In this document: in pieces, positions 10,438 through 30,600 of the stretch
Layout of the letters: each line of letters opens with the position of its first letter
Position numbering within the stretch: the stretch's first letter is position 1
NCBI GenBank assembly: GCA_021163005.1
Contig: JAGGXP010000037.1
Location: 1 to 41,914, forward strand
From: Candidatus Aenigmatarchaeota archaeon
Lineage (GTDB): Archaea > Aenigmatarchaeota > Aenigmatarchaeia > QMZP01 > JAFGSV01
Direction of reading: 5' to 3'
DNA length: 41,914 bases
Position numbers and translations under genes: made by a program
Notes under the pieces: generated by a model
Database searches by the model: none
What the model saw: only the letters and a program-made list of their open reading frames with translations
What the model was told of the DNA's origin: nothing

Positions 10438-11040
10438 GTGACAATACCCAAGTCCGAATACAAAAGCGAAAAGATTCTTGAAGACATTCTGGAAAAGGAT
10501 AAAAACGTCGTTGACCTGATTGTAGAAATGAAGAACATGGTAAACCTTGCCATAGCTTTGGGATTCTCGGCGCTCATCATAAAGGATAAAAAAATAGTGG
10601 ACAAGATACACGAGCTTGAGGAAGAGATAGACGTCCGCCAGTACGAGATAGAGGCCGAGTGCATGCTGGCAACGAAGACACCCAAGGACGCACTTGAGCT
10701 CACATCCGTGCTCAGGCTTTCAAGCGCCATGGAAGACATATCCAATGCCATAAAAGAGCTCATAGACTCCGTATCGAGGGGCATACCCATACACCCAACC
10801 ATACTCAGGGGCCTGAAGGATTCCGTCGAGGTTGCCGATTATGTGGAAGTCAAGAAGCGCTCAAAGGTTGTGGGCAAGACGCTGGCGGAGTTCACTGACG
10901 GCAAGGTAAGTGTTCTTGGACTCAAAAGGAACGAGAAATGGTCTTATCTCCCTGACAAGAACGATGTCATATCCCCGGGCGACGTGCTCATACTCTCCGG
11001 AAGGAAGAGGTCTGTCGAATCCGCCAAAAAGAGGGTTTAG
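10438..11040 (+). CDS. PhoU-like plus RCK_C (TrkA_C) regulator of cation transport
   Basis: A 200-aa soluble protein. The N-terminal part (about residues 10-120) is a PhoU-like helical bundle (ELEEEIDVRQYEIEAECML, LRLSSAMEDISNAI). The C-terminal part (about 135-200) is an RCK_C/TrkA_C ligand-binding domain ending GDVLILSGRKRSVESAK. This combination is known beside archaeal MgtE-like and K+ transport genes, where RCK_C domains sense small ligands. The order after two MgtE halves supports gating or regulation of that channel, although it also has its own promoter. The stop TAG overlaps the stop of the convergent 51-aa gene. Confidence 0.88.
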   Translation: MTIPKSEYKSEKILEDILEKDKNVVDLIVEMKNMVNLAIALGFSALIIKDKKIVDKIHELEEEIDVRQYEIEAECMLATKTPKDALELTSVLRLSSAMEDISNAIKELIDSVSRGIPIHPTILRGLKDSVEVADYVEVKKRSKVVGKTLAEFTDGKVSVLGLKRNEKWSYLPDKNDVISPGDVLILSGRKRSVESAKKRV

Positions 11041-11192
11041 GGTTTTTTGGTTTTTTTCCTTTTATGCGGAGGGTTGACGAACGGCGAGGGTAAAACCCTT
11101 TCCGAGCGTTGCCTGAGTATGTGAAGATAGATGCCGGCAGCAATAAAAATGGCAGAAGCCGCGACAACTGCAACTGTTTCTATCAGTTCCAC
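11037..11192 (-). CDS. Small single-TM protein (51 aa)
   Basis: A short reading frame that starts GTG directly after the TAA of the upstream coiled-coil gene (no spacer), with GGTGAT as a weak ribosome-binding site inside that gene's end. It reads VELIETVAVVAASAIFIAAG then IYLHILRQRSERV, giving one clear TM helix (about residues 6-25). A basic, proline-containing tail ends in a lysine cluster (KRKKTKKP). The predicted topology is N-out, C-in. It completes a cluster of coiled-coil genes that opens with another one-TM protein (17254-17526). Its TAA overlaps the TAG of the convergent gene. Confidence 0.7.
   Translation of the reverse strand: MELIETVAVVAASAIFIAAGIYLHILRQRSERVLPSPFVNPPHKRKKTKKP
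11043..11063 (+). terminator. T-tract terminator after the PhoU/RCK_C gene
   Basis: Directly after the plus-strand stop come six T, GG, seven T, CC and four T, a typical archaeal poly-T termination signal. On the other strand the same bases encode the lysine-rich end of the 51-aa protein. Confidence 0.6.
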
Positions 11193-13202
11193 TTAATCAC
11201 CCAAGTTCTCTGCGCTTCCGAGATCCACAACTGTCACCTTCTCGTCGCCTGTGCCTTTTCTCTCAAGGGAGTCCATGTCCCTTCTTATTTCAGCATTCCT
11301 CTCGGAAAGCCTGTCCACCTTCCTCTCGAGAAGGTCCAGCCTTGAGACGACTTTTGAGAAGTCCGATACGCGCTTGTTGGAATCGGAAACGCGCAGCTCA
11401 AGCATGCTTATCTTCTTGTTGAGCTCGGCCCTTGAATTCAGGAAGGCCTTCACGGCTGTGCTGAATTTGTTCCCTTCTTCTGTCTTTGTGCTGTCTATCT
11501 TTCCTGTCAGCGCGGAAAGTTCTGAAAATACCTGGGTCTTGAATTCGCCGAACTGCTTTTCAAAAGACTTGGAGCGCTCGGCCATTCTGGCCATGTCGGT
11601 CTTCATGCCCTTCATGGAGGAAAGCCCCCTTGATATCTCGTCTTTGTCTTTGATGACCTTCTTGAGCCTGTCGTTGAGCGAGGCCTCTATGTTGTCGGCT
11701 CTCTGCTTGAGGGTGGATTCCATGAATTTTATTCTCTCCTGAAGCTTGTCCTCCATGGCATCTGTCAGAGACTGTTTTGTTTCACTAAGGTCGCCGAGCT
11801 TTATCTGAATCTTCTCAAGCTCGGAAAGCTTCTTCTGCATCTGGGAAATGTCAGAAGAAAGTTTCGCCGCGGTCCTGGCCGTTCCTTTTGTGTCCTTCTT
11901 CATGGCATTGAGATCGAGTGTGGTTTTTCTCAGTTCCTCGTCAAGCCTGGCGAGCGCAGCTGCATTGAACGCGGTGTCTTTCTTTATTGAAGACACATTG
12001 AAGTCTATCTTTTTGTCAATCGCGGAATCGACATCCTCCATTCTTATGCGGTTGGAATCAACATCCTTTCTCAATGCAGTTATGTCCTTCTTTATGGTAC
12101 CAATTTCCTGAAGGTCCTTCATTAGACTCTTTGACAGCTTCTCGATATCTGTTATCCTCTGCTTCAGGCCGTCTATCAGCTTTATCTTTTTGCGCGTTTC
12201 TGCATGCACAGACCGTAAAGAAGACAAGTCCTTCTTCAGCCCCGAGATGTCCGTGCCTATCCGGGAAAACATATCATTGTTCCTTTGGACGATGCCGGTT
12301 TCAAGTATCTTGAGTCTGTCTTCAAGGTGCCTTTCAAGGACATCTGTCTTTTCAACCAGTTTTTCTTCAATGAACTTGTCGGCTCCGGTAAGCTTCTTGT
12401 CGAGGTCGAGTGTCTTCTGCTGGAGGGCCGCCATCTTGTTTTCTATGGATTTGAGTGATTCCACACCCTTCACAAGCCCGGCCTTGACCTGCTCTATGTG
12501 CTTTATCTTTGCCTCAAGCTTTCCAAGAAGTTCGAGCTTCTTTCTGTTCTCCGCTGTGCTTTCCCTGACACGCTTCATCCTTTCGTTCTCTGCCTCTATG
12601 TCCTTTTTGAGCGTCTGCAGGCTCAAGGCAAGCCTGTTTATGGCTGAGTCATGGTCCTTGAGCAGGCTTACCTGCTCGTCAAGCGTTCTGTTGACAAGTG
12701 ATATGCCTGAAGTGAACTTGTTGTCGACTGTGTTTACTGAGCTGTCTACCCGGCCTTCGAGGCCGTCAATGTGCTTGGACAGTCCCTCAAGCCTTTCAGA
12801 AATGTTGTTCAGAGCGCCCGAGAAGCCCTTATCAGTTTTTTGGCTTTGCTTTATGCCCTCAGATGCATCGCTTGCGGCTTTCGCTGCCTTTGCGAGCTGT
12901 GAGCTGAACTGAGCCAGGGATTTACCCTGCTCTTCTAGCCTTTTTTCAAGCTCAGAAATTTCATTGGAGAGTGCCTCTTTTACAGATTCTATGGAAGCCT
13001 GTGACGCGCTCTCCTTCTCCTCTGACTTGGCAAGCCTTGAACTGAATTCCTCTGTCTTCTTGGACAATTCCTGTATGGCATTGCCGTGTTCGTCCACTAT
13101 TCTCTTTATCTCTTCTGCAAGAAAACCGTAATTCCTGGCAAGTTCCTCTTTCTCTTTCTTGAGGCCGGCTATGCGGCTTCTCACCTTGCTGAAGTCCTCC
13201 AT
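11193..13202 (-). CDS. Long coiled-coil protein (669 aa)
   Basis: The product is almost wholly helical with continuous heptads, no TM helix and no P-loop or hinge, so it is not an SMC or Rad50 protein. The start ATG at 13202 (MEDFSKVRSRIAGLKKEKEE) is chosen because GGAGG lies 6 nt upstream within the end of the previous gene; an upstream ATG at 13268 would overlap that gene by 65 nt. Internal segments such as LEKIQIKLGDL and ITDIEKLSKSLMKDL recur loosely and resemble parts of the next protein, suggesting descent by duplication. A rod-like scaffold is likely; its partner and site are unknown. Confidence 0.85.
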   Translation of the reverse strand: MEDFSKVRSRIAGLKKEKEELARNYGFLAEEIKRIVDEHGNAIQELSKKTEEFSSRLAKSEEKESASQASIESVKEALSNEISELEKRLEEQGKSLAQFSSQLAKAAKAASDASEGIKQSQKTDKGFSGALNNISERLEGLSKHIDGLEGRVDSSVNTVDNKFTSGISLVNRTLDEQVSLLKDHDSAINRLALSLQTLKKDIEAENERMKRVRESTAENRKKLELLGKLEAKIKHIEQVKAGLVKGVESLKSIENKMAALQQKTLDLDKKLTGADKFIEEKLVEKTDVLERHLEDRLKILETGIVQRNNDMFSRIGTDISGLKKDLSSLRSVHAETRKKIKLIDGLKQRITDIEKLSKSLMKDLQEIGTIKKDITALRKDVDSNRIRMEDVDSAIDKKIDFNVSSIKKDTAFNAAALARLDEELRKTTLDLNAMKKDTKGTARTAAKLSSDISQMQKKLSELEKIQIKLGDLSETKQSLTDAMEDKLQERIKFMESTLKQRADNIEASLNDRLKKVIKDKDEISRGLSSMKGMKTDMARMAERSKSFEKQFGEFKTQVFSELSALTGKIDSTKTEEGNKFSTAVKAFLNSRAELNKKISMLELRVSDSNKRVSDFSKVVSRLDLLERKVDRLSERNAEIRRDMDSLERKGTGDEKVTVVDLGSAENLGD

Positions 13203-13203
13203 C

Positions 13204-15267
13204 TCATTCCTCCAGGTCCTTAAGAAGCTTGCCCATCTCTGTCTTGTACTCCTTCTTGAGTCCCACAATCTCGTTCATCAGGCGGGTGAGCTTCTTCTCA
13301 AGCATAGAAAGCTTTCTGGCATTGGATTCAGATTTGACGGAAGTCGAAGAGGAGGCTGATGAAATCTCTGATACCGTCCCGGACAGCTCGCTGAGCTTTG
13401 CGTCAAGCTCTGCCTCCTTTGCTGCAAATCTCTCCCGTTCAGCTGCAATCACATCCTTGAGTTCCGACTTCAGGCCAGTTGAAATGCCTGCCATGTCCTT
13501 TGAAACCTTCAGCGCCTCCTTCTCTATGTTTGACCTGACCTTTGCCGAAAGCTTGTCCATCTCATTCATGGAAGAAGCCATCCTGGCTTTCATGCCTGCA
13601 ATCTCCTGTTGAAGGTCTGTGACAACAGCTCCAAGCTTCTGGAGGTTCTTGATTTCTGTTTTGAGGACAGCATTTTCTTCCCTGAGTGTGTGTATGTCGT
13701 TCTTCAGGTTCTTCCTGACATCATTAAACGAGCGGACATTCTCACTGAGTATGCTTGATTCCGCTTTTTCAAGCCTGCCCTGTATGTCCTTTTCCATAGC
13801 CTCCATCGCATTCCTGAGCTTCATGTCGTCCTTCTCTGATTTGCTCTGCACTGCGGCGTTTATGGCGTCAATCTTTGCGTCAAGCGCAGCTATTTCCTGC
13901 TTTCTTTTCTCCGTTTCGGCAGCAACCTGCTCGAGGTTAGCTGAAACGCCGAGAATGTTCTTGATGTCCCTTTCCATCAGCCCTATCTTTTTGTCTGCTT
14001 CCATAGAGGATTTTTCTATGCCCCTTTCGAGGGACTTTCTCGTTTTGGCAAGCTCGTTCTTCATGGCAGTTTCTCTGCGGATGGTCATGTCTCTCAGCGT
14101 ATCTATCTGCTCGGCCAGCCGCGCCTCGGTTACATGCATCTTCTCGTCAATGGAGTTGTCGCGCTTCATGAGCTTTTCTGTTTTCTCGTTGAATATCCTT
14201 TCCATCTCTTTGGTTGTTTCCGAGTTGGATGCTATGCCCGCCTCAATGGCAGCTATTCTCTTGTCAATACCTGCTGAGAATGATTTCATTTCCCTGCTGA
14301 GCGCAGCCTCGTCCTTCTTCACACGAGCCTCGGCCCTTTTTTCAAAAGCGGCAATCTCCTTCCTCATGGATTCGAGCTCCCTTTCAGCCGACTCCCTGCT
14401 CTTTTCAAGCTCGAGTTTGAGCCCGCCGAGGTTCTTCTCGTCAGCCTCGCGGAGCTCTGAGGAAATCTCAAGTATTCTCTTCTCAACGTCCCCCGAAAGG
14501 GTCTCCATACCGGCGGCGACGTCTGCCTTGGTGGATGCCATCTGGTTTTTGAGGGACTGGCTGAGCCTTTCCATCTCTATCCTTGTCTGTGTCAGGTTGG
14601 ACACAGTTGTCTGCAGCTTGCCCTCAAGCCCCTGGATGTCTCCCTCGAACTTCCTCAGTGCCTCTATGTCTTTGCCGAGAATTATGCTGCGCTCCTTGAG
14701 CAGCTCTATCTTTGAATCAAGCTTTTTCTGGCCCGCGGAAAGTTTCAATGCAAATTTCTTTTCCTGCGAGGCGTTGGACTTCTTTATGATATTGTCGAAA
14801 TCTGCCTGAAGAGCCAGCAGCCGCTCCTCCAGCTTCATGTCGCCTTCCTGCGACTTCCTGACAGATGCCTTGAGTGCTCTCCTCAGCTTCTCACTGTCTG
14901 CCCTGAAATCCGCCGACAGGGATGCTATCCTTTTGTCTACTTTCGAGAGGTCCTGCTTTACTGTCTTCTCCATCTCGGCAAGTGTGTCAGCGAGCGACTG
15001 GTCAAAAAGCCTGAGCTTCTTTTCCCGGCTCTCAATATCGTTGAGCCGCTTTGTCACCGGATTGACCTGGTTGTTTATGAAGTATAAAAGACGCTTCCCT
15101 GCCTCACCGTAAACATAGGATGCCTCCTTGAGCTTGTTGACGAGATATTCGTTCCTTGCCTCAATTGTCCTCTTTTCTTTCTTGAGTTTGTCGGCCTCAG
15201 TCTTGTACCTGACGGCATCCTCCCTGAGTCTTCTGAGTTCCGACTCGACCTCCCTTATCTCGTCCAT
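13204..15267 (-). CDS. Long coiled-coil protein (687 aa)
   Basis: A helical, heptad-rich protein throughout, starting MDEIREVESELRRLREDAV. Residues about 50-75 (YVYGEAGKRLLYFINNQVNP) are a less charged interruption that could be a small interaction site. No catalytic motif or TM helix is present. It begins 4 nt after the previous gene's stop and ends 1 nt before the next start, so it is one of a tight run of genes likely made in fixed ratio. It resembles its 669-aa neighbour in composition and in recurring alternations of Lys-Lys-Asp and Leu. Confidence 0.85.
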   Translation of the reverse strand: MDEIREVESELRRLREDAVRYKTEADKLKKEKRTIEARNEYLVNKLKEASYVYGEAGKRLLYFINNQVNPVTKRLNDIESREKKLRLFDQSLADTLAEMEKTVKQDLSKVDKRIASLSADFRADSEKLRRALKASVRKSQEGDMKLEERLLALQADFDNIIKKSNASQEKKFALKLSAGQKKLDSKIELLKERSIILGKDIEALRKFEGDIQGLEGKLQTTVSNLTQTRIEMERLSQSLKNQMASTKADVAAGMETLSGDVEKRILEISSELREADEKNLGGLKLELEKSRESAERELESMRKEIAAFEKRAEARVKKDEAALSREMKSFSAGIDKRIAAIEAGIASNSETTKEMERIFNEKTEKLMKRDNSIDEKMHVTEARLAEQIDTLRDMTIRRETAMKNELAKTRKSLERGIEKSSMEADKKIGLMERDIKNILGVSANLEQVAAETEKRKQEIAALDAKIDAINAAVQSKSEKDDMKLRNAMEAMEKDIQGRLEKAESSILSENVRSFNDVRKNLKNDIHTLREENAVLKTEIKNLQKLGAVVTDLQQEIAGMKARMASSMNEMDKLSAKVRSNIEKEALKVSKDMAGISTGLKSELKDVIAAERERFAAKEAELDAKLSELSGTVSEISSASSSTSVKSESNARKLSMLEKKLTRLMNEIVGLKKEYKTEMGKLLKDLEE

Positions 15268-15271
15268 AACA

Positions 15272-17257
15272 TCACTTGAATTCCTTCAGAAGGTACGCTA
15301 TCCTCTCCTTCTGCTGCGCGAGTTTGCCTTCCAGCCTCTTCTTCTCCTCCGCATTCTGTGTTATTAACTTCTGAAGTTCCTTCTTCTCAGAGTCAAACTT
15401 CTGGTCGAGAGCCTTCTGGTGCTCCTTCACCTCGTTGAGGTTTTTGAAAAGCGCGTCGACCTTCTCATGAAGCTTCCTCGTCGGGACCGCCCTCTCATCT
15501 ATCTCCTTTATCTTCTCCTCAAGGCCGTCAGCCCTTCTGACAAAGAACTCGCGTATCTCCGTTATGTCCTTGGTCTTGTTGTCAAGCTCTGTGATGATTT
15601 CTTTGGGTGTTTTAAGCTTTTCAATCTCGTCCCTGAGGTCGTGCAGCTTGTCCTTCAGCATGTCTATCCTCTCGTCAAGCTTTTCGTCTTTCTCCTCAAG
15701 TTTTTTCATCATGTCCTCAAGGGCTTCGAATTCACCCTTCAGGGCAGAGAGCGCCGCGATGTCCTGGTGAGCTTCTGAAAGGCTGTTCTCAAGGCTCTGC
15801 AGCTTGTCGCTGAAAAGCGTGAACCTGCTCGCGAAATCCTTTCTTAGCTCAGCATTCTCCGCTTCTATCATGCCAGGGAAAATCTCCTTCATCTTTTCGG
15901 TCATCTCCTTCTGGACCGACTTGTTCAGGTCTTTCATTATGGTGTTGGTCTCGACGAGTCCCTTTTTGAGGGCAGTTGCTGTCTCCTCAAGCTTGGCTAT
16001 CCTGTCGTCGAACTTGTAAAGCGACTTTATATCCTTTCTGTCAGCTTTTATTTCCAGAAGAACCTCGGCGAGCTTTTCCCTGACCTTTTCGTTGACATCC
16101 TCTACTGCCTTCACGCGCTTTGCGAACGGGTCGATTTTTTCCTCGGTCTCCCTTTTTACAACAAGGGGTATGACCTCGTTCTTCAGGTCGTCCGCATTTG
16201 ATATGAGCATCCTCAGCCTGTCCACATTCTCCGGTCCGAGCTTCTTCTCGAACTGTTCCATCTTCTGCTCAAGTTCCGGTATCTTTTCTGTGGACTCAAG
16301 CTCCCTGTCTATGGCCATGAACCTGTTCTCAGCTTCCTCCTTGAAGGCATCAAGGAGTGTGGCAAGGTCCTTGAGTGATTTTTTGAACCCGTCCACCTCG
16401 TTTTTCAGTTCCACGCCGCCTCCCATTGCCATCAGGCCGCCGGAAACCTCTCCCTTCGCTCCCTGTTGGGTCGCTGGGGCGGGCTTTGCCTTGGCCTCCT
16501 CAAGCTTCTCGCTGAGCTCCTTCAGCCGCTTGTCGAACATCTTCTTCATGGTTTCGGCGACTTCCTCTTCACCCTTGCCCTCTTCCTCTTTCTTCTTGTT
16601 CATGGCTTGTATGGTCTCGGCCAGCTGCTTTATCTGTGATGCTGTCTTCTCCTCAAGCTCCTTTAGTTTCGGTTCGATGTTTGCAGCAGCCATCTGCGGC
16701 ATCATCTGAGGCGGAACCTGCTGGGGAGCATTCTTTGACTCCTTCACCTCATTGGAAAGATCCTCTATGAGTTCGGCCAGCTCTTCCTCCTTCTTCATTG
16801 CCTCTTCCTTCTCTTTTTCAAGCTCCCTCATGGTTTCCTTCTGGGTCTCTATCTGCTTTTTAAGTTTTTCAACATCAGACTTCGAGGCTTTTTTCTTTGG
16901 CTTTGGGGATTCATCATCTTCTGCAGGCTTCGGCTCTTCCGTTGGCTGCTGCGCTTCTGGCGCAGATTCGGCAGTTCCAGGCTGGGCCGCAGGCTCAGAT
17001 TCGGCACTATCAGGTTTGGCTTCGGTTTTCTGCTGCGCTTCATTTGTTGCATTTGACGCAGCTTCTGCACTATCAGCTTTGGCTTCGGTTTTCTGCTGGG
17101 CCGCAGGCTCAGACTGTGCACGTTCAGGCTCCCCGAAATTCTTCAGGCCGCCCAGTCCCCCGGCCCCTCCTGAGCCGGCCTCAAGAGCTGCCTGCTCTTC
17201 AAGCTTCTTTTGTTCTTCCTCGAGTTTATTGTCATCCTTCTTCTTTCCGAACATCAC
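15272..17257 (-). CDS. Coiled-coil protein with Ala/Glu/Ser/Pro-rich N-terminal linker (661 aa)
   Basis: It begins MMFGKKKDDNKLEEE. Residues about 30-130 are a low-complexity linker built from QQKTEAK, PDSAES, EPAAQP and similar pieces, and residues about 130-655 are coiled coil. The MMFGKKK start resembles the short hydrophobic-plus-lysine N-terminus of the 3434-4744 protein. The linker is nearly the same as that of the 692-aa protein at 25560-27638, including identical DNA stretches. It overlaps the upstream TM gene by 4 nt. It is probably a cytoplasmic scaffold, and its exact role is unknown. Confidence 0.85.
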   Translation of the reverse strand: MMFGKKKDDNKLEEEQKKLEEQAALEAGSGGAGGLGGLKNFGEPERAQSEPAAQQKTEAKADSAEAASNATNEAQQKTEAKPDSAESEPAAQPGTAESAPEAQQPTEEPKPAEDDESPKPKKKASKSDVEKLKKQIETQKETMRELEKEKEEAMKKEEELAELIEDLSNEVKESKNAPQQVPPQMMPQMAAANIEPKLKELEEKTASQIKQLAETIQAMNKKKEEEGKGEEEVAETMKKMFDKRLKELSEKLEEAKAKPAPATQQGAKGEVSGGLMAMGGGVELKNEVDGFKKSLKDLATLLDAFKEEAENRFMAIDRELESTEKIPELEQKMEQFEKKLGPENVDRLRMLISNADDLKNEVIPLVVKRETEEKIDPFAKRVKAVEDVNEKVREKLAEVLLEIKADRKDIKSLYKFDDRIAKLEETATALKKGLVETNTIMKDLNKSVQKEMTEKMKEIFPGMIEAENAELRKDFASRFTLFSDKLQSLENSLSEAHQDIAALSALKGEFEALEDMMKKLEEKDEKLDERIDMLKDKLHDLRDEIEKLKTPKEIITELDNKTKDITEIREFFVRRADGLEEKIKEIDERAVPTRKLHEKVDALFKNLNEVKEHQKALDQKFDSEKKELQKLITQNAEEKKRLEGKLAQQKERIAYLLKEFK

Positions 17258-17526
17258 TTACCAAGCTCCTCTATGAGTTTTTTCGTCAGCTCCCTCTGCT
17301 TCCTGAAATCCTGATGAAGCTCTTCCATATGCCTTTCAAGCTTCTGTATCTTCAGTGTGAGGTCGGAGTCTGCCATGTCCTCCGGTCTTATGCCCACGAA
17401 CTTTTCCCATATCTTCTCAGTCGGGAGCTCGTATTTTCTTGAATGAAGAACATTGAATTTTCTCAGTTCATAGACCAGGAAAACTACAGAACCCACAAGC
17501 AGTGCTGACAAAATTATGTCTATCAT
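17254..17526 (-). CDS. Single-TM protein with cytoplasmic coiled coil (90 aa)
   Basis: The N-terminal helix IILSALLVGSVVFLVYEL (about residues 3-21) is a membrane anchor. It is followed by a basic linker and, from about residue 58, a coiled coil (LTLKIQKLERHMEELHQDF). It is the first gene of the coiled-coil run, with its own TATA-like box at 17555-17566, 29 nt upstream. It may tether the long coiled-coil proteins to the membrane. Size and layout resemble FtsB/FtsL-type anchors, but there is no sequence basis for calling it one. Confidence 0.82.
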   Translation of the reverse strand: MIDIILSALLVGSVVFLVYELRKFNVLHSRKYELPTEKIWEKFVGIRPEDMADSDLTLKIQKLERHMEELHQDFRKQRELTKKLIEELGK

Positions 17527-17554
17527 GATATCTGTGTTATAATTGGTTAATCGC

Positions 17555-17566
17555 TTAAATAAAATA
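17555..17566 (-). promoter_or_regulatory. TATA-like promoter of the coiled-coil operon
   Basis: On the minus strand the AT-rich box TATTTTATTTAA lies 29-40 nt upstream of ATG 17526 in the 45-nt gap after minD. It would permit transcription of the run 17526-11037 independently of minD. Confidence 0.5.
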
Positions 17567-17571
17567 GTATG

Positions 17572-18351
17572 TTATGCACGTGTTCTTCCGAAGCCGAAAA
17601 ACCTTGCTATCCTCGAGAGGAAGGTCTCGGGAACATATTTCTCCCCTATGAGCTTTCCGGCAAGTTCAAGGAAAGCCCGGCTCGCAGGCGATTCAGGGTC
17701 AAAGGACACAACAGGTGTCTTCAGGGCAAGGCTTCTCAGGACATTCTTGTCCATTGGCACAGTGCTTATTACATTCAGTTCGGAAAGCTGCTCAACCTCC
17801 TGCACGCTGAGCTCATATCTCTCCTTGCCTACCATGTTAAGCATTATGCCGAGCGGCTTGGTGTTCATCTCAAGGGCAACCTGATGGCATTTTATTATGT
17901 CCATTGTCGAAGGCACGAATGGCGTGGATATGAAAAGCACCTCGTTGCTGGCCCGCATGGTGGCCATGGCCTCGCGTCCCATGCCCGGCGCGCCGTCAAG
18001 AAGCACTATGTCGGCATCTTCTGAAAGCTTCTTTATGACACGCGAAAGCCTGCTTACGTCCACTCCCCTGAGGTCCTTAAGCGACAGCGAGGCCGGAATT
18101 ACCTTCAGGTTCGGAACGTGGTAGTCGTATATGGCTTCGTGTATCTTCGACTTTCCGGTGAGCACCTGGTTGAGCGTGACGGGAGAATAATACATCCCAA
18201 GGTAAAGGCTGAGATGGGATGTCGTTATGTTGCAGTCAACTATTATGACCTTCTTCTTGTAATATGAGGCGAGGGCTGTTCCCAGATTGGCTACGGTTGT
18301 GGTCTTTCCGACGCCTCCCTTGCCCGAAAGTATTCCTATAACCCTTGTCAT
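17572..18351 (-). CDS. minD: MinD/ParA-family ATPase
   Basis: A 259-aa deviant-Walker ATPase. The A motif KGGVGKTT is at residues 11-18, with signature Lys11 and catalytic Lys16. Switch regions include IIVDCNIT and IVLLDGAPGMG. The C-terminus ends FLSRIARFFGFGRTRA, an amphipathic basic helix of the kind that anchors MinD to membranes. Archaeal MinD proteins position surface structures such as chemoreceptors and archaella rather than FtsZ. Here it sits directly upstream of a membrane-anchored coiled-coil operon, so it may place that assembly. No minE or minC is seen. Confidence 0.92.
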   Translation of the reverse strand: MTRVIGILSGKGGVGKTTTVANLGTALASYYKKKVIIVDCNITTSHLSLYLGMYYSPVTLNQVLTGKSKIHEAIYDYHVPNLKVIPASLSLKDLRGVDVSRLSRVIKKLSEDADIVLLDGAPGMGREAMATMRASNEVLFISTPFVPSTMDIIKCHQVALEMNTKPLGIMLNMVGKERYELSVQEVEQLSELNVISTVPMDKNVLRSLALKTPVVSFDPESPASRAFLELAGKLIGEKYVPETFLSRIARFFGFGRTRA

Positions 18352-18405: not shown

Positions 18406-19074
18406 TCACCACTTCAAGTTGCACAGCAGTTTGGTCAGTTCCTCCTCGCTGCTGAACAGCGCCGGAAAGCCGTCTGAACCTCCGATTGTTGAATGAAGCT
18501 CATACATGTAATTAAGCAAATCTGCCCCTGTTCCGAGTGACAGTGCTGTGGCTATCATCTTTGACACTATCTCAGCGTTGTACTTTTTGGAGAAGGCTAT
18601 CATGTTCGAGAAGAACACGTAAAGGAATACGTGCAGGAATATATATCTTCCGTATGTTCCGAGTATGTCGCGGCTGCCCCTGTAGAGTATCCTCAGGTTG
18701 GAAAGCTCGAAGAAGTATTTCCTGTAACTTTCCATGAACGGCTGGACGTATTTCCATTTCTCTTTCACAGCAAGCTCCGGGGACCAGAAGCCGCCCAAGG
18801 TTTTCTCCTGGCCGAAAAGCCCGTAGATGTATTCGGGTATCCATTCGAACCTTGGCTTTATCCTGTTGCCCACTATGTCTATGTACCTCTGCTCTTCCAT
18901 CAGCCTGAAAAGGGGCTTTCCCAGTCCCGCCTCGTTGTGATACAGGTAATTGGTTTTGATGTCCCAGATGGTCTGTATCCTGAAGAGTGATATGCCGTCC
19001 TTTTGTCCGGCGCAGCTGAGCCATATCAGCCAGAAGTTTTTGTAGTCAGTGAGCCTTTCCTTGACTTTTCCCAT
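18406..19074 (-). CDS. Conserved-looking protein of unknown function (222 aa)
   Basis: The family is not recognised. The chain is rich in aromatic residues (Tyr, Phe, Trp). It has a helical, mostly soluble N-terminal half (MGKVKERLTDYKNFWLIWL) and a hydrophobic patch at about residues 140-160 (FLHVFLYVFFSNMIAF), possibly a buried or membrane-associated helix. It has the overall feel of a winged-helix protein, but no motif proves that. A TATA-like box at 19098-19109 lies 24-35 nt upstream. It ends 54 nt before minD and may be co-transcribed with it. Confidence 0.75.
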   Translation of the reverse strand: MGKVKERLTDYKNFWLIWLSCAGQKDGISLFRIQTIWDIKTNYLYHNEAGLGKPLFRLMEEQRYIDIVGNRIKPRFEWIPEYIYGLFGQEKTLGGFWSPELAVKEKWKYVQPFMESYRKYFFELSNLRILYRGSRDILGTYGRYIFLHVFLYVFFSNMIAFSKKYNAEIVSKMIATALSLGTGADLLNYMYELHSTIGGSDGFPALFSSEEELTKLLCNLKW

Positions 19075-19248: not shown

Positions 19249-22200
19249 CTAATATGCGGTCCCGCCGAGCGCTTTGAGCTTTTCGATGTTTCTCTTGCGC
19301 AGTTCGTTGTAAGCCGTCTCTGAAATGATGCCCTGCTTGAACTCCCTCTCGAGAAGCGAAAGAACCTTTTCTATCTTCTGTTTCTCCTCTTCCTTCCTTG
19401 CGGCAGCCTCGGCATCGAAGCGCGTCCTTGACGCAGACGGGCCAAGCTCAAGGAGCTCCTTGCCCGTGCTGAGTTCCGGGCTGCGCTTCCTGAACTCGAA
19501 TATCTTTTCCAGGCGCTTTTTGTATCTGTTTGCCACGATTACCAGTGCCAGCACAACTATGGTCAGCAGGAGTATGAGTGTCAGCATCCAGTCCGGAATC
19601 TCTATTATGGTCGTTGGCTTCAGGGGCGGGGCATTCCTGAGCAGCTCCCTGCCCCGGTCAAGCAGCCTCCAGCCCGTAGTTACGGAATCAAGTGCCTCAT
19701 CAAACATGCGTGCATCAAGATAGCCCTCGGTGAGTTCTATCTGGTGTTGTATCTCGCCTATTATGTCCTTGACCCTCGAAAGGTCCTTCTCGCCCCGCTT
19801 CTCTTCGACGTCGACATCCTCTTTGAATTCCTCGAATGCCTGCTTGAGCTTCTTGAGCTGGTATCTCACGAGATCCTCGCGCGAGCCGAACACTATGATG
19901 GACGTGAGCTTCTCGTCGTAGGCCTCGTCTGAGCTGGCGTTGATTGTTCCGTAGTACTGTCTCGCCTCAGTACCGGGAGGCACGAATATGTTGAAGGTGA
20001 ATATCTCCGTCCCGCCAGGATTGAGCAGAGGCAGCAGCTTCGGCGTCACGTTGTACCAGCTGTCGGGTATGCCTTCCAGAACTACTTTTACATTGTGGAG
20101 AACAGCCGTGCCTGTGTTGTTCACTGTCACCGATGGGTACTGCGTCCAGCCGGTTTCAGTGGTTATCTCTTCCGGATATTTGCTTATCTCTATGGACGGG
20201 ACCGGCGGCGGGCCTGCAGGCCCTGCCGGCGCCCCTCCTTCGCCGCCCCCGCCGCCTCCCGGCGGCGGACTTGGACCGGATGGAGGTGCTTCTGTGGTGT
20301 TGAAATACTTGTAGGCAGCTGCCTTCTCAGTGCCGGAATAGGTAACCACGAATGTTATCTTGGCTTCTCCGAGATAGCTTATCCCCGAAGGGTATATGCT
20401 GTGCGTTATCTCTGAATTGGCAGGAACGAGAACCGTGTCAAGGCCTTCCTCAAGCGACTGCCCGGTATCCCTTCTGGTGAGGTTCCACTGTATGAATGCG
20501 TCCTGGGAGTCGTCGCCGGTGTTCTCTATTACAACTGTTATATGGAGTTCCGGTATACTGGCGTCAACAATGTTTATGTCCCTGACATCGAAAGGCCCTC
20601 CGACAAGTCGCGTGTAAATATCCTTGGTTATTGTGTTGCTGTCCTTGGTTATTGTGACTACCCAGCGCCAGTTGCCCTGGTTCGAAGATGTGGAAGTATT
20701 ATAGTATCTCAGGTACCTGCCTGTCGAAAGCTTTGTCATGCTCTGGTTTGAGAGTATGAGGTTGTCAAGCGGGTCGTAAAGCGAGACCTCTATTGTGTCC
20801 GGGTCTATGTTGCCCACACCGTCTGTAACAACTGCCACAATCTCCAGCCCGTCGGTTGTGCTGGTCTGGGCAGGTGCCTCAAGGTCGAGTGTCAGCATCC
20901 CGGGTCTTGTCTGCAGTACAGTGAAGTTGACAGTCGTGCTGTTGTCAACTGTCATAGAGACAGCCGAATCGTAGAATTCTGAAAAGGAGTTGATGCTGTA
21001 TGTGCCTGTGACGGAGTCTGAGTAGAGGTCGAATATGGGGTAATAGTCCGGCTCGCCCTGGCTGTTGGTCGTGAAGTCAGCGTTCTGCATGAGCACAAGC
21101 CTGCCGAGTGGGTCTGTGATGTTTATGCTCACATTCGTCCCCTGAAGAGACAGCCCCTCGGCATCCGTGACTCTGTAAAGTAGCGTGCCGCGCTCGCCCT
21201 GATAATATTCTCCTGTCTGTCTTGTCGTGGAAAGGTTGACAACAAGCAAAGTGTATGCATAGAAGCTTGAGTTTTCGGTGTCGTTTAGACCGGCATTGTC
21301 CTCTGCATATACCTCTATCGTATAGTTTCCCCTTTCCGTTGTGTCGCCCCATGTGCCGTTCACCGGGTCTGTGGGATAGAACTCCTGATAGGTGTAGGGA
21401 TCTGTGGACGTGCCGACGCGCCTCATTTTTATCTTGTCAGTGCCGCCGCCAGGGCGTTTAACAGTCACAGTTGTAAAGTTTATGCCGTATATGCCCGCCT
21501 GGTCCGTGACATAGACAAGGATTTCAGCGCTTCCCAGCTGAGGTATAAGGGAAGGCGTGAGGTTTATGCTTATGAGTGGCGCAACGAATGGTGTCAGAAG
21601 GACGCTGAAGTTCCTGCTCGCCGGCTGGCCGCCGGCTGCGGTGACATTGTAGCTGGCGTTGTAGAATACAAGCGGATCACCTGTGACATTGTAGAATATC
21701 TGGAATGTTGTGCTTGTCTGGTTCTCGAGCTGGAAGGATGTCAGTTCAGGCCATGTGTTGTTGTTCTCGCTCGTGCTTGTGGCAGCCGGGCTTATGCTGA
21801 ATGAGATGTTGACGTTGCCTGTGTTGTTTATGGTTATGTTGCAGGCCGTTCCGTTATCCGGGCTTTCGGGATGCTCGCAGCTCGCGGGGTTCAGCACCCA
21901 TGTCCTGCTTTCAGGGACAGTTATGTTGAACTCTATTGTCTTGTAGCCGCTGTTGTTCGTGGTGACATTTATGTATCCGAGGTATGTGCCGTTGGGATAG
22001 CTGAGCGGTATGCTTCCCGTGACATTGACTGTTATTAACTGCCCGGGATAAACTATGCCGTTCTGTGTCTGTGTCACATTCGGAACTGCTGTAAGATTGA
22101 AGTTCTTGAAGTTTCCCATCTCGTCGCCTATTGTTATTGTGACATTCGTGACGTTGTCATTGCCCGTCGAGTTGAGGGTGAAGTTTGCTATGACACCGGA

Positions 22201-25200
22201 GCTGTTGTGCTCGAGTGAGCCTGCGATGCTGTCCTCAGGTATGGTGAGATTCACATTGGACAGGACTGTCACATTGACTGTGCTTGTGTTTTCCCATGTC
22301 CCTATTTCAGGGTTGAACCATAGAACTGTCACATTTACAGTATAGTTTCCTGAAGGCGTTCCGTTGGATACTTCTATTGTGAATGCACCGGAGCAGTTGC
22401 CTCCGGACAGCACATCGCCGCAGCTGTAAGGCGTTGTGTTTGATGTGGTCAGCAGCGCATCAGAAAAGCTAAGGGTGACGTTTGTTGCAAAAGCTGTTAT
22501 GTTGCCGGCATTGCTGGTGTTGAAGCTGACCGTGAAGTTCTCGGCTGTGTAATAGGTTATGTTTTTGGCTGTGTAGTTTTCCGGGCTTATGTCAAGGGTC
22601 ATGTTCGTTCCGGACACTGTGATGTTGAACTCAAGTTCTTCATAGCCGTCGTCTGAACTCGTGACGTTGAGTGTGCCTGTGTAGAATCCTGTGCTGTATC
22701 CGGACTGAACATCAAGATAGACCTCTGTGTTTTCCGAAATGCCTGCGCCAAGCCCGGAATAGCTCGGCGGGACAAACGTGAATGTGAATTCCGGCGGGAA
22801 GCCCGTGACTGTGAAGTTGACTTCAGAAAGCGGCGCGTTACCAAGCGATTCGACTGTCAGGTTTCCTATGTTTTTCTGCACGCCGGATGCCACAAAGCTT
22901 GTTATGTTGGTTTCAGGCACATCGAGTATGTAGGTTGGGTTGACTGTCACGTTCATGGATGTCTGGTTCTGCTCATGGGAACCTACCTTGTTGTCCCACT
23001 CAACTGTCGCGTTTACTGTGAAGTTGGCTGGAGCTGTAGTTTTCAGGACTGTTATATTGAAGTTGATGATGCACGACTTTGATATGGGTATGTCCGGATT
23101 GCCTTCGCCGTCATCACAGAAGGCTGATGTGGCGTTTGCTGTCATGTTGGGCGGTATCTCTATGCTGACAGAGGCATTGAACGCTGTTCCGTTTGCTGTG
23201 TTGGTGGAGTTTACCGTCAGCATGAAGCTCTCGTTGTCTAACCATGTGACATTCGTTACAGTGTAGGAAGTTGGGGAAACCTCTATGTCCACATCAGTCT
23301 GGGTCTCCTCTGCGCTGAAGTCGTATGTATCGGAACCGTTGTTCCCGTCCTTGCTTGCGGTGCAGTTGAGTGTGAAAAGACCGAAATATCCCGGCGCCGT
23401 GAAGTTGACGTCATAGGTTCCGTTGTTGAGGTCCAGTATGTTCTCCTGAGCGACGTCATAAAGCTTGCTGGCTCCCTGATAAACCGAGCAGTTGACCTGG
23501 GCTCCCGGATGCCATACGTCCTGCCTGTAGTTCATTACCTTCACCGTGGCATTGACCAGCCTGCCTACGTCGCCTGTCGGATTCGCTATCTGGGTGTCAA
23601 CGAACAATTCGCTGGTGATTGTGAAGTTCACTGAGGATGTGTTGGCTACGCTGTCGTAGGCGTCAAATATCAGTGCGGTTGCTGTCCAGATGCCTGTCGT
23701 TTCTGAAACAGAGATGTTGAAGAGGTTTGTGAATACCATGTCGCCGGATGTTTGGTCGCCGTGCGTGCCGTCGTCGTACATGCTCAGGTTTATGTCATCA
23801 GCAGTTGAAGGCGTTCCGTTGTTCAGCGTGACGTTCACAAAGCTCGTGAGGCCGTAGGGGTCGTAGCTGACGTTCACGGTGAGCAGCACTGTCTCGTTCC
23901 TGTTGTAGTATGCGTGGTCTGTATCTGTGCGCGAAAGCAGTGTCTTCGGTTCCCCGACCTGCTCGGTTATGTTGTACGGACTTTTGACAGCGTTCTTTAT
24001 GTTTATGAACTCTGTCGTTCCGCCGCGTCCGAAATAAGCAAGCAACTTCTGTATTATGGACTGGCCGGGACTTACTGTTGTGTTTGAGAGCTCTATGCCT
24101 ATTCTGCCGCCTTCGATGGAACTGTTCGTGGAAAAGAATTCCGGAACCGTTTCGTTGAGGTTCACTATGCCCGTTATTTCAGTGCCGTCCGAGAACAATG
24201 AATACCACGAATATGGGTCTGTTTCGTTGCCATCATATGGATTGGTCGCGGGGCTGGAACCTATCCCCTGCCAGCCCCTCACAATATCGAAGGCCAAGGC
24301 GCCGGCCTCTGTAGAGTTTCTTGATATGGTGTATCCTGCGGTGTTCGTGAAGTTCTGCTCTATCTTTATCCAGCTGCCTGTCTGCTCTGGTCCTGCCTTG
24401 TTGTAAATATAATATTTCTTGACCATGCGGCCCTCGCCCGTCGTCAGGCTCGTGTTGCCGAAGACTACCTCGTCTCCCTCCATTGTTATCGTCGTCCTGA
24501 CCGGGCCGTAAACAATGCTCACATTGCCTCTGAAGTCGAACGTCAGGTTGTCGGTCCCGTTTGAGTACTGGTTGTACTCCACTGTCTTCTCGTCATCGTT
24601 GGCAACGAAAAACGGCACAGGCTCAGTGGGGCTGTTGAACTTGACCTGATAAATGCCTGATGTGTTCTCGCTCCTGTTCGTGTCTATCCTGATGTCAAGC
24701 CGCGTGCTGTTTATGTGTATCTCGTCTCCTGAAAATGCATATGACAGGTTTGTCTGGTAGCTTGGCGCGGCCTTTGCTCCGTTCTCGGTTGTGTCGAAAT
24801 AAACGAAAAACGTCCTCACAGCATTGCTCTCAGTCGTACCGTTCATTATGAAAACCAGTGTGCCGAAGGCGTTTGATGTGCTGTCGTAGGCATATCCTTT
24901 GTCGAACTGGCTTGGCATTTCATGCAGAAGCCCGCCTGTGGAGTTGTATTCAAAAACTCTTGTGGAGTTGTCGTCAAACGTGCCTGTGAAACCCAGTTGG
25001 TTCAGGACATCTGTGAAGTTTATGTCCCTCTCTATGGGCCAGTTGGTGACATTGTAGTCGCCGTTCTCTATTACCAGCTTTATCCTGTAGTTCCACGTAT
25101 TGTTCCACCAGTCAAACCTGTAGACATCTATGACGTCAGTTGCGTTTATGTCGCTGTCATAGCCCTGCGAAGAGCCGTCGCAGTGCACATTCCAGTCATA

Positions 25201-25563
25201 GCTTCCTGCATCCGGGAATGTCCTTGTGTATTCGTAAAAACCGCTGCCGGAATTGTAGGTCATTGTAACCGGGGTGCTCCACGACCCTGTTGTGTTGAAC
25301 TTTATCTCGCAGTAAACCCCGCCGCCGCTTATGGGATTGCCGCTTGCAGAACTGGTGTAATTGGCATAGAACGTGACGTCTTTGTTTATGATGGCAGGCA
25401 CGGAGCCGCCTTGCGTATCCTCCGTGCTCCAGATGCCGAGCTCGGAATTGGTGCCGGAAACAAATGTGTAGAAACCTGTCAGCTGCTGGCCTGAAAGCAT
25501 GAGAGCCGCGGCTACGGCTGCGGCAATCACTACTATGACCGGTACTGTGCTTTGCCTTGTCAT
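19249..25563 (-). CDS. Giant surface protein with C-terminal TM and SHOCT-like cytoplasmic tail (2,104 aa)
   Basis: Residues about 7-24 are a signal/anchor helix (VPVIVVIAAAVAAALML). The ectodomain (about 30-1985) is Asn/Thr/Ser-rich with very many NxS/T sequons and repeated Ig/CARDB/NEW3-like beta modules (TVEWDNK, LNVTSSDDGYEELEFNITV, repeated NVTxxNTG patterns). A Pro/Gly hinge spans about 1758-1790. A membrane-proximal beta domain and a helical segment (KDIIGEIQHQIELTEGYLD) follow. The TM helix is near 1991-2013 (WMLTLILLLTIVVLALVIV), and a cytoplasmic tail of about 90 aa ends in a SHOCT-like helical hairpin (about 2060-2098). The tail motif matches three copies in the upstream-encoded 692-aa protein, whose stop overlaps this start by 4 nt. 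The two probably interact. Confidence 0.9.
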   Translation of the reverse strand: MTRQSTVPVIVVIAAAVAAALMLSGQQLTGFYTFVSGTNSELGIWSTEDTQGGSVPAIINKDVTFYANYTSSASGNPISGGGVYCEIKFNTTGSWSTPVTMTYNSGSGFYEYTRTFPDAGSYDWNVHCDGSSQGYDSDINATDVIDVYRFDWWNNTWNYRIKLVIENGDYNVTNWPIERDINFTDVLNQLGFTGTFDDNSTRVFEYNSTGGLLHEMPSQFDKGYAYDSTSNAFGTLVFIMNGTTESNAVRTFFVYFDTTENGAKAAPSYQTNLSYAFSGDEIHINSTRLDIRIDTNRSENTSGIYQVKFNSPTEPVPFFVANDDEKTVEYNQYSNGTDNLTFDFRGNVSIVYGPVRTTITMEGDEVVFGNTSLTTGEGRMVKKYYIYNKAGPEQTGSWIKIEQNFTNTAGYTISRNSTEAGALAFDIVRGWQGIGSSPATNPYDGNETDPYSWYSLFSDGTEITGIVNLNETVPEFFSTNSSIEGGRIGIELSNTTVSPGQSIIQKLLAYFGRGGTTEFINIKNAVKSPYNITEQVGEPKTLLSRTDTDHAYYNRNETVLLTVNVSYDPYGLTSFVNVTLNNGTPSTADDINLSMYDDGTHGDQTSGDMVFTNLFNISVSETTGIWTATALIFDAYDSVANTSSVNFTITSELFVDTQIANPTGDVGRLVNATVKVMNYRQDVWHPGAQVNCSVYQGASKLYDVAQENILDLNNGTYDVNFTAPGYFGLFTLNCTASKDGNNGSDTYDFSAEETQTDVDIEVSPTSYTVTNVTWLDNESFMLTVNSTNTANGTAFNASVSIEIPPNMTANATSAFCDDGEGNPDIPISKSCIINFNITVLKTTAPANFTVNATVEWDNKVGSHEQNQTSMNVTVNPTYILDVPETNITSFVASGVQKNIGNLTVESLGNAPLSEVNFTVTGFPPEFTFTFVPPSYSGLGAGISENTEVYLDVQSGYSTGFYTGTLNVTSSDDGYEELEFNITVSGTNMTLDISPENYTAKNITYYTAENFTVSFNTSNAGNITAFATNVTLSFSDALLTTSNTTPYSCGDVLSGGNCSGAFTIEVSNGTPSGNYTVNVTVLWFNPEIGTWENTSTVNVTVLSNVNLTIPEDSIAGSLEHNSSGVIANFTLNSTGNDNVTNVTITIGDEMGNFKNFNLTAVPNVTQTQNGIVYPGQLITVNVTGSIPLSYPNGTYLGYINVTTNNSGYKTIEFNITVPESRTWVLNPASCEHPESPDNGTACNITINNTGNVNISFSISPAATSTSENNNTWPELTSFQLENQTSTTFQIFYNVTGDPLVFYNASYNVTAAGGQPASRNFSVLLTPFVAPLISINLTPSLIPQLGSAEILVYVTDQAGIYGINFTTVTVKRPGGGTDKIKMRRVGTSTDPYTYQEFYPTDPVNGTWGDTTERGNYTIEVYAEDNAGLNDTENSSFYAYTLLVVNLSTTRQTGEYYQGERGTLLYRVTDAEGLSLQGTNVSINITDPLGRLVLMQNADFTTNSQGEPDYYPIFDLYSDSVTGTYSINSFSEFYDSAVSMTVDNSTTVNFTVLQTRPGMLTLDLEAPAQTSTTDGLEIVAVVTDGVGNIDPDTIEVSLYDPLDNLILSNQSMTKLSTGRYLRYYNTSTSSNQGNWRWVVTITKDSNTITKDIYTRLVGGPFDVRDINIVDASIPELHITVVIENTGDDSQDAFIQWNLTRRDTGQSLEEGLDTVLVPANSEITHSIYPSGISYLGEAKITFVVTYSGTEKAAAYKYFNTTEAPPSGPSPPPGGGGGGEGGAPAGPAGPPPVPSIEISKYPEEITTETGWTQYPSVTVNNTGTAVLHNVKVVLEGIPDSWYNVTPKLLPLLNPGGTEIFTFNIFVPPGTEARQYYGTINASSDEAYDEKLTSIIVFGSREDLVRYQLKKLKQAFEEFKEDVDVEEKRGEKDLSRVKDIIGEIQHQIELTEGYLDARMFDEALDSVTTGWRLLDRGRELLRNAPPLKPTTIIEIPDWMLTLILLLTIVVLALVIVANRYKKRLEKIFEFRKRSPELSTGKELLELGPSASRTRFDAEAAARKEEEKQKIEKVLSLLEREFKQGIISETAYNELRKRNIEKLKALGGTAY

Positions 25564-27651: not shown

Positions 27652-30600
27652 CTACATGTTCTTCATCCTCGTCCTGACCGATTCCATGTAACTCTCGGCC
27701 ATTGTGAACAATCCCTGTTTCAGTTTGTCGAGAGCCAAATTGAGTTCGACCTCGACATCACCTGTCTGAACGCCTTTCTGCTTCATGGATTCAAGCTGCT
27801 TCTTTATGGCATCTGCCTCCCTGCTTATCTTTATGTATTTGTCAAGCTCCTCAGATGTTAGCCTCTTCGTGTCGTGGAGCAGCGGCCTGAAGGATACGAA
27901 CCATGGCTTTCCGTCGTTGTATGCGGCGTTCTGCACAAGTCCCGTTCCTGTGACAAGCTTCGTTATCTTTGATGCGTAATCCGGGCCGTATTTGGTCTTG
28001 ACCCTGTTTATGTCACCCTCGTACTTGGTCCTCAACTGTATCTCCGTGGATATGTTCGCCCTGATGGCTCCCTTGAAGTCCATGAGCACCTGCGATATCA
28101 GGAATATGCCTATGCCCCACTTACGGAACTCCCTTGCTGCCCTCTCAAGAACTATGTAGCCGCCCTTTCCGCCGTACTTCGGTAGCAGCCTGTGGACCTC
28201 GTCGTATATCATGAGCATTTTCATCTCCCTCGACTCGGGCAGCCTCATCGCGAACAGCGACTCCACTGTATTCCTCACGAACTTGTCCATTCCGCTCGGC
28301 GGAAGCTTTTCTGTCACAAGCACCGTCATCTCTCCCTTCTTGCTCATTATGTCTTTCCATGGTATGACCTGCTCTGGACTTTCAATGCCTATTATGTTTA
28401 CCTTGAAGCCCATCGCATCTTCAGGCTTCATGCCGAACTTCGGATACAGGTCAAGCATCGCCGGATCCTTGCATGCCCGCATGAATCCTGTCCACTGGGC
28501 TGTCGGATCTACGACAACCACAGGCACTCCCCTCTTGAGAAGCTCTTCTGAACAGACCTGAGCTGAAACAGACTTGCCTGCGCCTGTCGAACCGGCTGCT
28601 ATGCTGTGGGTTGTGAGGTCATCCAGCGTCATGTATGCCTTTATGTCTGTTTCAGCAACCTTTCCCACGAGCATCGACCGGTCTCCTGCTTTCGGAAGCT
28701 TGTTGACATCCATCGGGAAGATGTACCTCGTCTTGGCCTTTTTCTTTTTGCGGTATTTGTAGTAGAAGCTGGAGCCGAAGTAATAGCCAGGTATGATTGC
28801 AAACAGCAGCGCGTATGTTATCCAGCTGCTGAATATGCCCCTTATTATCTTGAGCGGCGGGGCTATGTATAGGACATCGAACGAGTCTATAGCATAAGCC
28901 TGCTTGGTGCCGTTCCAGTACGTCACATTCACCTCAAGGGAATACCTGCCTATGGGCGTGTCATCTGGAACGAATATGGTTTTCTTGAATGTTCTTACAT
29001 TCTCCATGCCAAGTGTCTCCTGCTCCCTGAGAACTATTCTCTCTGTGTCGAGGTGCCTCATCTCATAGGTGACCACAATGTCGTCTATCTTCGCTGTCTC
29101 GCCCATGTTGAGAAGAGTGAGCTCAAGCGAAAGGTTTGAATTGGGTTCGACTGTCTTTGTCAGCGCCTTCACCTTTACGTCAAGCAAAGGCTCCTTGGGC
29201 TTCTGGACCTTTACGGTTATCGGGGTGACATGCGTTATGTTCATGCCGCGTATCCTTGTGACAATGTCGCCTGTGTAAATACCCTCCATTGTGCTCGGAA
29301 GTGTGAAGACCTTTATCTTGATTGTGCCTGTGGAGCTTCCGCGTATGTCGATGGTCGGCTTCTCTATCATCACGAGCTCCCACACATTTCCGCGGACCTC
29401 AACGTCAGCTGTTATGGTCCCGGCAAGGTTGTTGTCTATATCTATGCTGTGTATCTCGTGTTCACCCGGCCTCAGTGTAACGAATATGAGCTGTGAATCT
29501 ATCTTTATCGGAAGTCTCGGCGCCGGCGGCGATATGGCTCCGCCTCCGCCGCCTCCTGCTCCGCCTCCGCCGCCTCCTGCTCCGCCTCCGCCGCCGGGCG
29601 GCTGCGGCGGCTGTGTAACCTCACAGTCCTGCGGACAGTTTCCTGAGGACTCACCGTAATCGTTTTCGCATTCACCGTTGCCGCATATGTATTCAGCCAC
29701 GGAATATGCTCCTGTCAGTTCAGACAGCGGCGCAGTTATTGTTTTCTGGGAAAGGCTGTAGTTCGTTCCGGAAAGTCTCGTCCAACTGTCTGCGCATCCC
29801 GAGCCCGTAACCCAGTTGCTGCAGTGGTATATGCCCAGAATGTCTGGGCTGACCATGTCTCCCTCATACGAGGAGTAGTTGAAGGAAAGCGTGGCGTTGT
29901 CGAATGTGAATGCGAATGTGTTGTTGCCTGAGGTCATGTTCTGGTTGGCTTCTGCTGTTATGGCCTCGAAAAGGCCCCTTGTGTTGTATCCAACGAGGCC
30001 GAGAACCTTTATCTTACCGAATGTCAGCGCGTTCAGTGTGTCGTAAAGTATGTCAGAGCCGTAGATGTCCAGTGTCTCGTTCCAGAACTTCACATTGAGA
30101 TCATAGGTTCCTGCATCTATCGTCTGGTTGTAGTAGCCGTTGTTAGTGGTGAAGTTGAAGTACCATCCTGCGTCGGTGTAATGAAGGCTGTAGTCCACGT
30201 CAAGCGGCGGCTTCGGGTCTGCTTCTTCCTCGTCATAGTTGAATCCATGGAATAGTATCAGCACCGACACTATGAATCCCCGGCTTGTCTTGTTCATATT
30301 GCCGGAAACGTCGTACGCAGTGGCGTTGATGACATAGTCGCCTGTCTGCGAGGTGTTGCTGAACTGGCCGAGGTAGGTGTAGGTGTCGCCCGTCCTGCTG
30401 ATGAACGTGAGCGGAAGGTCTTCCGTGAAGCCGGCATGAGTGACTGTAGCGCTGGCGTTCTTGACGCCGCCGGAGTCTGTCACATAGACGTATATGTCAG
30501 TTGTCGTGTTGGCGGACACCTTGGGTGTGACGCCTATGCTTATCTGCGGCGGGGTGGGGTCCTGATAGACCACGGATTTGTATTCCGTGTCCCAGTAGAA

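Follow-up and report, generated by a model that had tools for sequence, protein, structure and literature searches.

What does a MinD-family ATPase, encoded together with long coiled-coil proteins and small membrane proteins, do beside the gene for a giant surface protein? The question is raised by contig JAGGXP010000037.1 (41,914 nucleotides; hereafter the window, meaning the whole of this stretch), which is an entire contig from the 0.95-Mb metagenome-assembled genome (MAG) of a Candidatus (Ca.) Aenigmatarchaeota archaeon. On its minus strand, the genes for the giant, ADAPT, SURF, a 222-amino-acid (aa) protein, MinD, a 90-aa protein, three coiled-coil proteins (rods 1-3), and a 51-aa protein follow each other in this order (Table 1; ADAPT and SURF are working names coined in this analysis). 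The operon appears to belong to the giant machine, a functional link that is well supported by genome comparison because the gene order recurs, MinD tracks the type I giants defined below, family f13 repeats the combination of MinD and rods, and a MinD of another archaeal phylum is fused to hairpins found in ADAPT and SURF. Since the gene set recurs with the giant across the phylum, it is probably a dock that places a host-contact machine. The fuller proposal, namely that these genes encode a cytoplasmic module for positioning and docking a host-contact machine of SPEARE type, with MinD and the membrane-tethered rods as a scaffold, has in our judgement an even chance of being correct.

Linkage was counted at those Aenigmatarchaeota loci encoding the giant's ATPase tail that have enough downstream sequence, and MinD was sought within ~21 kb. 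Tails with at least 50% identity to that of the window were designated type I and those below type II, a cut-off that was set on the window itself and is therefore a source of bias; related genomes and loci are not independent, so that Fisher values are descriptive. An ADAPT homologue lies directly 3' of the tail in 48 of 56 loci. A downstream MinD accompanies 16 of the 20 type I giants versus 3 of the 22 type II giants, and in these three cases it lies on the opposite strand (Fisher p 3e-5, with loci treated as independent); SURF accompanies 20 of 24 type I versus 1 of 21 type II giants.

The order from the giant through ADAPT, SURF, the 222-aa gene, MinD, and the 90-aa gene to rod 3 is intact in three genomes of family f1 (G001, G003, and G004), and its parts are visible in two others (G002 and G005) as far as the contigs allow. 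In f4 (G012, G016, and G024; G014 in part), the order is kept with a MinD identity of 66-69%. In f5 (G013, G017, G034, and G036), the parts occur together, with the 222-aa gene and MinD oriented divergently from the rods. In the distant family f13, MinD is followed by three coiled-coil proteins of 426/421, 758/644, and 270/272 aa (G064/G067), and the contig of G066 ends inside the first coiled-coil gene after MinD. In a MinD tree, the rod-linked MinDs of f1, f4, f5, and f13 fall into one group (20 rows; Shimodaira-Hasegawa-like approximate likelihood ratio test, 84, which is modest support), apart from the genome's other MinD. Giant-linked MinDs are also clustered on the tree, requiring 8 changes versus a mean of 20.5 after shuffling (0 of 500 shuffles as low).

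ADAPT and SURF share a SHOCT-like helical hairpin of ~45 residues. The profile was seeded on the four copies in the window, and the other families served as the test: the hairpin was found three times in ADAPT of f1, f4, and f13 and twice in that of f30, and SURF of f1, f4, and f30 has a single copy at its cytosolic tip (f4 and f30 not being seeds). Neither MinD nor the rods nor the tail of the giant gave a hit in the profile search. In G290, a genome of another archaeal phylum, an operon encodes a giant, ADAPT, SURF, a MinD of 452 aa to which two hairpins are fused, and another MinD (52% identity). This fusion, which is located at L161:13986-15344, is the strongest single hint that MinD may work on the adapter.

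The earlier note on this DNA had tentatively tied the operon to the giant surface genes, and the order kept in f1 and f4, the type I counts, the recurrence in f13, and the G290 fusion support this tie strongly. It had also named as the refuting case an operon in a genome lacking such genes, of which there is no clean example. The operon occurs without a giant tail in G005, G024, and G134, all 64-77% complete; a surface gene adjoins the operon in the first two, and the contig of G134 is too short. Partial exceptions are G019, in which MinD and the 222-aa gene lie on a 7.5-kb contig without rods, and G015, with weaker homologues and no giant. G002, which apparently has MinD and the 222-aa gene without rods, was rejected as a counter-example because the operon there sits between 100-N scaffold gaps and both the operon and a surface-protein tail are present.

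The giant matches HerA_C (4e-9), DUF87 (7e-9), and NPCBM_assoc (6e-14) in Pfam. Its last 398 residues comprise a transmembrane segment (TM) and an ATPase with distant NCBIfam matches to CedD, HerA, TraC, and TraD. The AlphaFold2 (AF2) model of this tail has a predicted local distance difference test score (pLDDT) of 85 and matches the folds of HerA (4d2i, Z 23.2), VirB4 (4ag6, Z 20.3), and TrwB (Z 18.1), in descending order. Walker A (G86...GK92) and Walker B (D216 E217) are invariant in 36 homologues and, together with the RecA-like fold, place the tail in the HerA/FtsK superfamily. The tail was found in 55 of 156 Aenigmatarchaeota genomes, and its profile also matches 35 archaeal genomes outside the phylum (one weakly).

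SPEARE proteins were described with a laminin-G domain in the ectodomain (Hamm 2019, PMC6642349); giants of this type were later reinterpreted as VirB4/TraG-tailed, proposed secretion ATPases and defined by immunoglobulin (Ig) repeats plus the ATPase (Reva 2023, PMC10266531). Judged from its sequence, the giant of the window is of SPEARE type because a profile of its tail finds those of Ca. Nanohalovita BNXNv and Ca. Nanohalococcus SVXNc at E ~1e-167 (open frames of 8,891 and 9,433 aa, versus 8,880 and 9,409 aa as published; PMC10266531). It has the very long Ig-like ectodomain, the TM near the C-terminus, and the cytosolic VirB4/HerA-type ATPase of the type, its N-terminus being off the contig. 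No laminin-G domain was matched by Pfam in the 4,753 aa present, which lack the N-terminal part. SPEARE-type giants are a leading candidate for the means by which DPANN archaea make contact with their hosts and affect them, and the source archaeon is probably host-dependent.

Two further observations concern HerA-tailed giants. The open frames of five of them (G249:C8, G064:C2, G067:C12, G338:C54, and G258:C9) span 12,145, 11,262, 11,249, 10,914, and 10,846 aa (unverified starts), exceeding 9,409 aa, the largest reported in cultivated archaea (PMC10266531). The type II class (e.g. L072, L074, and L094), with 41-50% tail identity and many members of ~2,000-3,000 aa, mostly keeps ADAPT and is without MinD and SURF.

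The earlier note's identification of MinD was borne out, and the membrane-targeting tail that it described is a prediction. MinD exceeds the curated cut-off of the NCBIfam model minD_arch (TIGR01969; 232.5 versus 201.75 bits) and is thus of the archaeal type. It contains a deviant Walker A with the signature lysine (KGGVGKTT, residues 11-18), which is invariant in 15 sequences. The C-terminus (ETFLSRIARFF) appears to be amphipathic, with a hydrophobic moment of 0.69 that is equalled or exceeded by 5% of shuffles; four relatives are similar, and across five MinD members the moment is 0.65-0.71 (3-10% of shuffles as high). The second MinD of the genome is without such a tail (moment 0.50, 44% of shuffles as high).

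The rods were assessed with a home-made measure of heptad periodicity, not a published predictor. Heptad-type coverage of rods 1, 2, and 3 is 0.71, 0.80, and 0.84, compared with shuffle means of 0.19, 0.39, and 0.38; the three proteins are thus mainly coiled coil, as had been claimed. In Pfam, the rods show sub-threshold coiled-coil matches only, with no family above its cut-off, and they are therefore not regarded as SMC proteins. They are mostly coiled coil without an ATPase head, and no SMC family was matched by any protein encoded from MinD to the 51-aa gene, again in agreement with the earlier note. Homologues were found for rod 1 in f4 (1e-25) and f5 (1.5e-16), for rod 2 in f4 (1.6e-13) and f5 (1e-8), and, weakly, for rod 3 in f13 (4e-4). 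The 51-aa open reading frame (ORF) is real, as it is kept in three relatives (G001, G003, and G004) with a common (F/M)PAPFxNP motif and a basic C-terminus; its counterpart in G013 is a 63-aa ORF with one TM. A low-complexity KTEAKPDSAES-type linker is common to ADAPT and rod 1 (53% over 58 aa).

Table 1. Features of the gene block in the window (positions on the forward strand).
Feature	Position	Strand	Remarks
SPEARE-type giant surface protein	27652..41913	-	Runs off contig, at least 4753 aa; Ig/NEW3-like ectodomain, one TM, cytosolic HerA/VirB4-type ATPase
TM and HerA-type ATPase tail of giant	27655..28848	-	Alignment, AF2 model, fold match
ADAPT, 692-aa coiled-coil protein with three SHOCT-like helical hairpins	25560..27638	-	Directly 3' of giant
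ADAPT hairpin 1 (aa 188-234)	26937..27077	-	Profile seed
ADAPT hairpin 2 (aa 591-638)	25725..25868	-	Profile seed
ADAPT hairpin 3 (aa 651-691)	25566..25688	-	Profile seed
SURF, second surface protein, 2104 aa; N-terminal signal/TM, TM 1993-2011, cytosolic tail	19249..25563	-	
SURF cytosolic-tip hairpin (aa 2058-2103)	19255..19392	-	Profile seed
222-aa protein, predicted N-terminal winged helix and helical domain	18406..19074	-	Alignment, AF2
MinD-family ATPase, 259 aa, C-terminal amphipathic tail	17572..18351	-	TIGR01969, alignment, tree
90-aa protein, N-terminal single TM (1-19), cytosolic coil	17254..17526	-	Aligned in f1, f4, f5
Rod 1, 660/661 aa, low-complexity N-terminal linker, then coiled coil	15272..17257	-	Start GTG 17257 or ATG 17254
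Rod 2, 687-aa coiled coil with conserved N-terminal head	13204..15267	-	
Rod 3, 669-aa coiled coil	11193..13202	-	ATG at 13202, 1 nt past rod 2 stop
51-aa single-TM protein, basic C-terminal tail	11037..11192	-	GTG start

MinD, the two one-TM proteins, and the three rods all lie where the earlier note had placed them, on the same strand. The tight spacing it described holds from the 90-aa gene to the 51-aa gene (overlap of 1-4 nt between the 90-aa gene and rod 1, then gaps of 4, 1, and 0 nt) and fails for MinD and the 90-aa gene, which are separated by 45 nt. The operon probably starts one gene earlier than had been supposed, at the 222-aa gene, past a 174-nt AT-rich gap. The AF2 model of the 222-aa protein (pLDDT 82) gave weak winged-helix matches (best Z 5.5); Foldseek returned no match at E<=0.001, and a sequence search of the PDB no match. 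Named relatives with homologues are nearly all Ca. Aenigmatarchaeota, and of 156 genomes, 24 have the 222-aa family; the giant tail is present in 19 of these versus 36 of the other 132 (p 2e-6, not corrected for kinship). This predicted winged-helix protein is a likely local regulator of the block. Further downstream, the window encodes a DUF87/HerA-like ATPase that stands alone and a coiled-coil protein whose N-terminus looks amphipathic (MGFLDALFGKKK) (4932-6221 and 3434-4744), both of which recur in G001, and a 157-aa protein with a pilin-like N-terminus (MKGQVWSFDLAVSMIIF; 8353-8826), which is kept in G001 and G003.

Gene content, linkage, and domain identities can be read from the DNA; positioning and polarity are what we infer from them. 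In the proposed mechanism, the giants would assemble via a hexameric ATPase ring, to which ADAPT and SURF would bind from inside via their hairpins. Beneath the ring, the rods would form a submembrane scaffold, with the 90-aa and 51-aa proteins as their membrane tethers. MinD-ATP dimers would bind the membrane via the amphipathic tail and recruit the rods or the adapter, and hydrolysis, stimulated by one of the partners, would release MinD. The assembly could thus be kept at one place, i.e. a pole or a host-contact site, and be shared out at division, and the 222-aa protein would probably control expression of the block. The placement step is proposed because of the MinD family, the amphipathic tail, and the precedent of Haloferax MinD4 and MinD2. 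The scaffold envisaged in the earlier note fits the anatomy (amphipathic MinD tail, single-TM anchors, and coiled coils), and its terms 'cytoskeletal', 'polar', and 'holding' are to be taken as hypotheses. A bolder version, in which DPANN archaea have a dedicated host-contact organelle whose giant HerA-tailed adhesin-translocases form a ring seated on a membrane-tethered plate of coiled coils that MinD positions, the whole being assembled and passed on as a single unit, is tentative and rather doubtful; if true, inter-archaeal attachment or transfer would for the first time have a cytoskeletal system of its own.

Several observations weigh against placement by MinD and rods. MinD lies downstream of the giant in f6, f16, f17, and f30 with rods absent beside it; type I loci at G098, G135, and G016:C20 are without a nearby MinD, as is that of G034, in a gapped scaffold; and the giants of the cultivated nanohaloarchaea have neither MinD nor rods next to them. 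The genomes of Aenigmatarchaeota used here are MAGs, of which many are fragmented. Furthermore, a basic N-terminal peptide is the mark of MinE/ParB/PomX-type activators, and the charge of the first 30 residues of rod 1 is +9 to +11 in three f5 genomes and -4 to +4 elsewhere; being clear in these three genomes only, the peptide was rejected as a MinE/PomX signature.

Instead of positioning, MinD and the coiled coils may be working parts of a translocation machine, i.e. the assembly ATPase and cytosolic chassis of type IV-like secretion or DNA transfer, with MinD recruiting substrate or controlling assembly. Agrobacterium VirC1 and the TadZ/FlhG-type proteins of pili are analogues for such a MinD. 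The VirB4/HerA fold of the giant's tail, the G290 fusion, and the proposal of Reva et al. that such giants are secretion ATPases (PMC10266531) are consistent with this explanation, although none of the operon's proteins was recognised as a relaxase or channel component and rod length varies ~2-4-fold between relatives, which resembles a spacer or scaffold more than a fixed engine part. Substrate recruitment and positioning are inseparable by sequence, and we consider a purely translocational role unlikely.

It is less probable still that the module is an independent cytoskeleton, or a determinant of cell shape or division, lying near the giant by chance. The make-up of the rods is like that of bacterial coiled-coil cytoskeletal proteins, MinD can act in division, and in G019 the pair of MinD and the 222-aa gene has neither rods nor a giant nearby; however, the genes are co-conserved through the f5 rearrangement, the contrast between types I and II and the recurrence in f13 speak against chance, the genome has a separate second MinD, and the hairpin fusion in G290 joins MinD to the adapter's domain. 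Very unlikely, finally, is FlhG-like numerical control, in which MinD and the winged-helix protein would mainly set the number or expression of giant machines and the rods would be structural adapters of the surface complex. The 222-aa gene does adjoin MinD, and the two are divergent from the rods in f5, but the winged-helix assignment is weak at the Z score and Foldseek threshold given above, DNA binding is a prediction, and the membrane anchors are left unexplained.

Among known systems, the SPEARE giants of Nanohaloarchaeota (PMC6642349, PMC10266531) share with the giant of the window the adhesive ectodomain, the C-terminal TM, and the cytosolic VirB4/HerA-type ATPase, and an ADAPT-like coiled coil is encoded downstream there too. 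BNXNv and SVXNc differ in that MinD, rods, and SURF were not found within ~19 kb downstream of the giant and that the giant and ADAPT are separated by a second, small HerA-tailed protein. In these two genomes, the ADAPT-like gene following the giant and the second ATPase (L168:15323-16879 and L169:15356-16918) is in turn followed by a small gene whose product has CxxC pairs and a single TM. The giant's tail has the fold of HerA/VirB4/TrwB-type hexameric translocases (Z 23/20/18) but is joined via the TM to an ectodomain of thousands of residues. PomXYZ of Myxococcus (PMC7993993) likewise combines a ParA/MinD ATPase with a filament-forming coiled-coil scaffold protein, whereas PomZ binds DNA and positions FtsZ, and the basic activating N-terminal peptide of PomX is not general in the rods described here.

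Within the available text of the literature searched, on SPEARE with HerA, MinD with a polar cap, and Aenigmarchaeota surface proteins, no report of this operon was found, nor of a MinD/ParA-type system in which a SPEARE-type giant as cargo and rods are described together. If the giant is indeed placed by this gene set, its host-contact machine could be approached from the cytosolic side, through MinD, the adapter, and the adapter's hairpin. A precedent for placing a surface machine is Haloferax, in which MinD4 and MinD2 of the same archaeal family place archaella and chemosensory arrays, not the division ring (PMC11588486). The operon described here combines MinD with its presumed cargo and membrane-tethered rods, an arrangement not described in the available passages of that paper; if the reading as a positioning and docking module is true, the role of archaeal MinD would widen from motility machines to host-contact machines.

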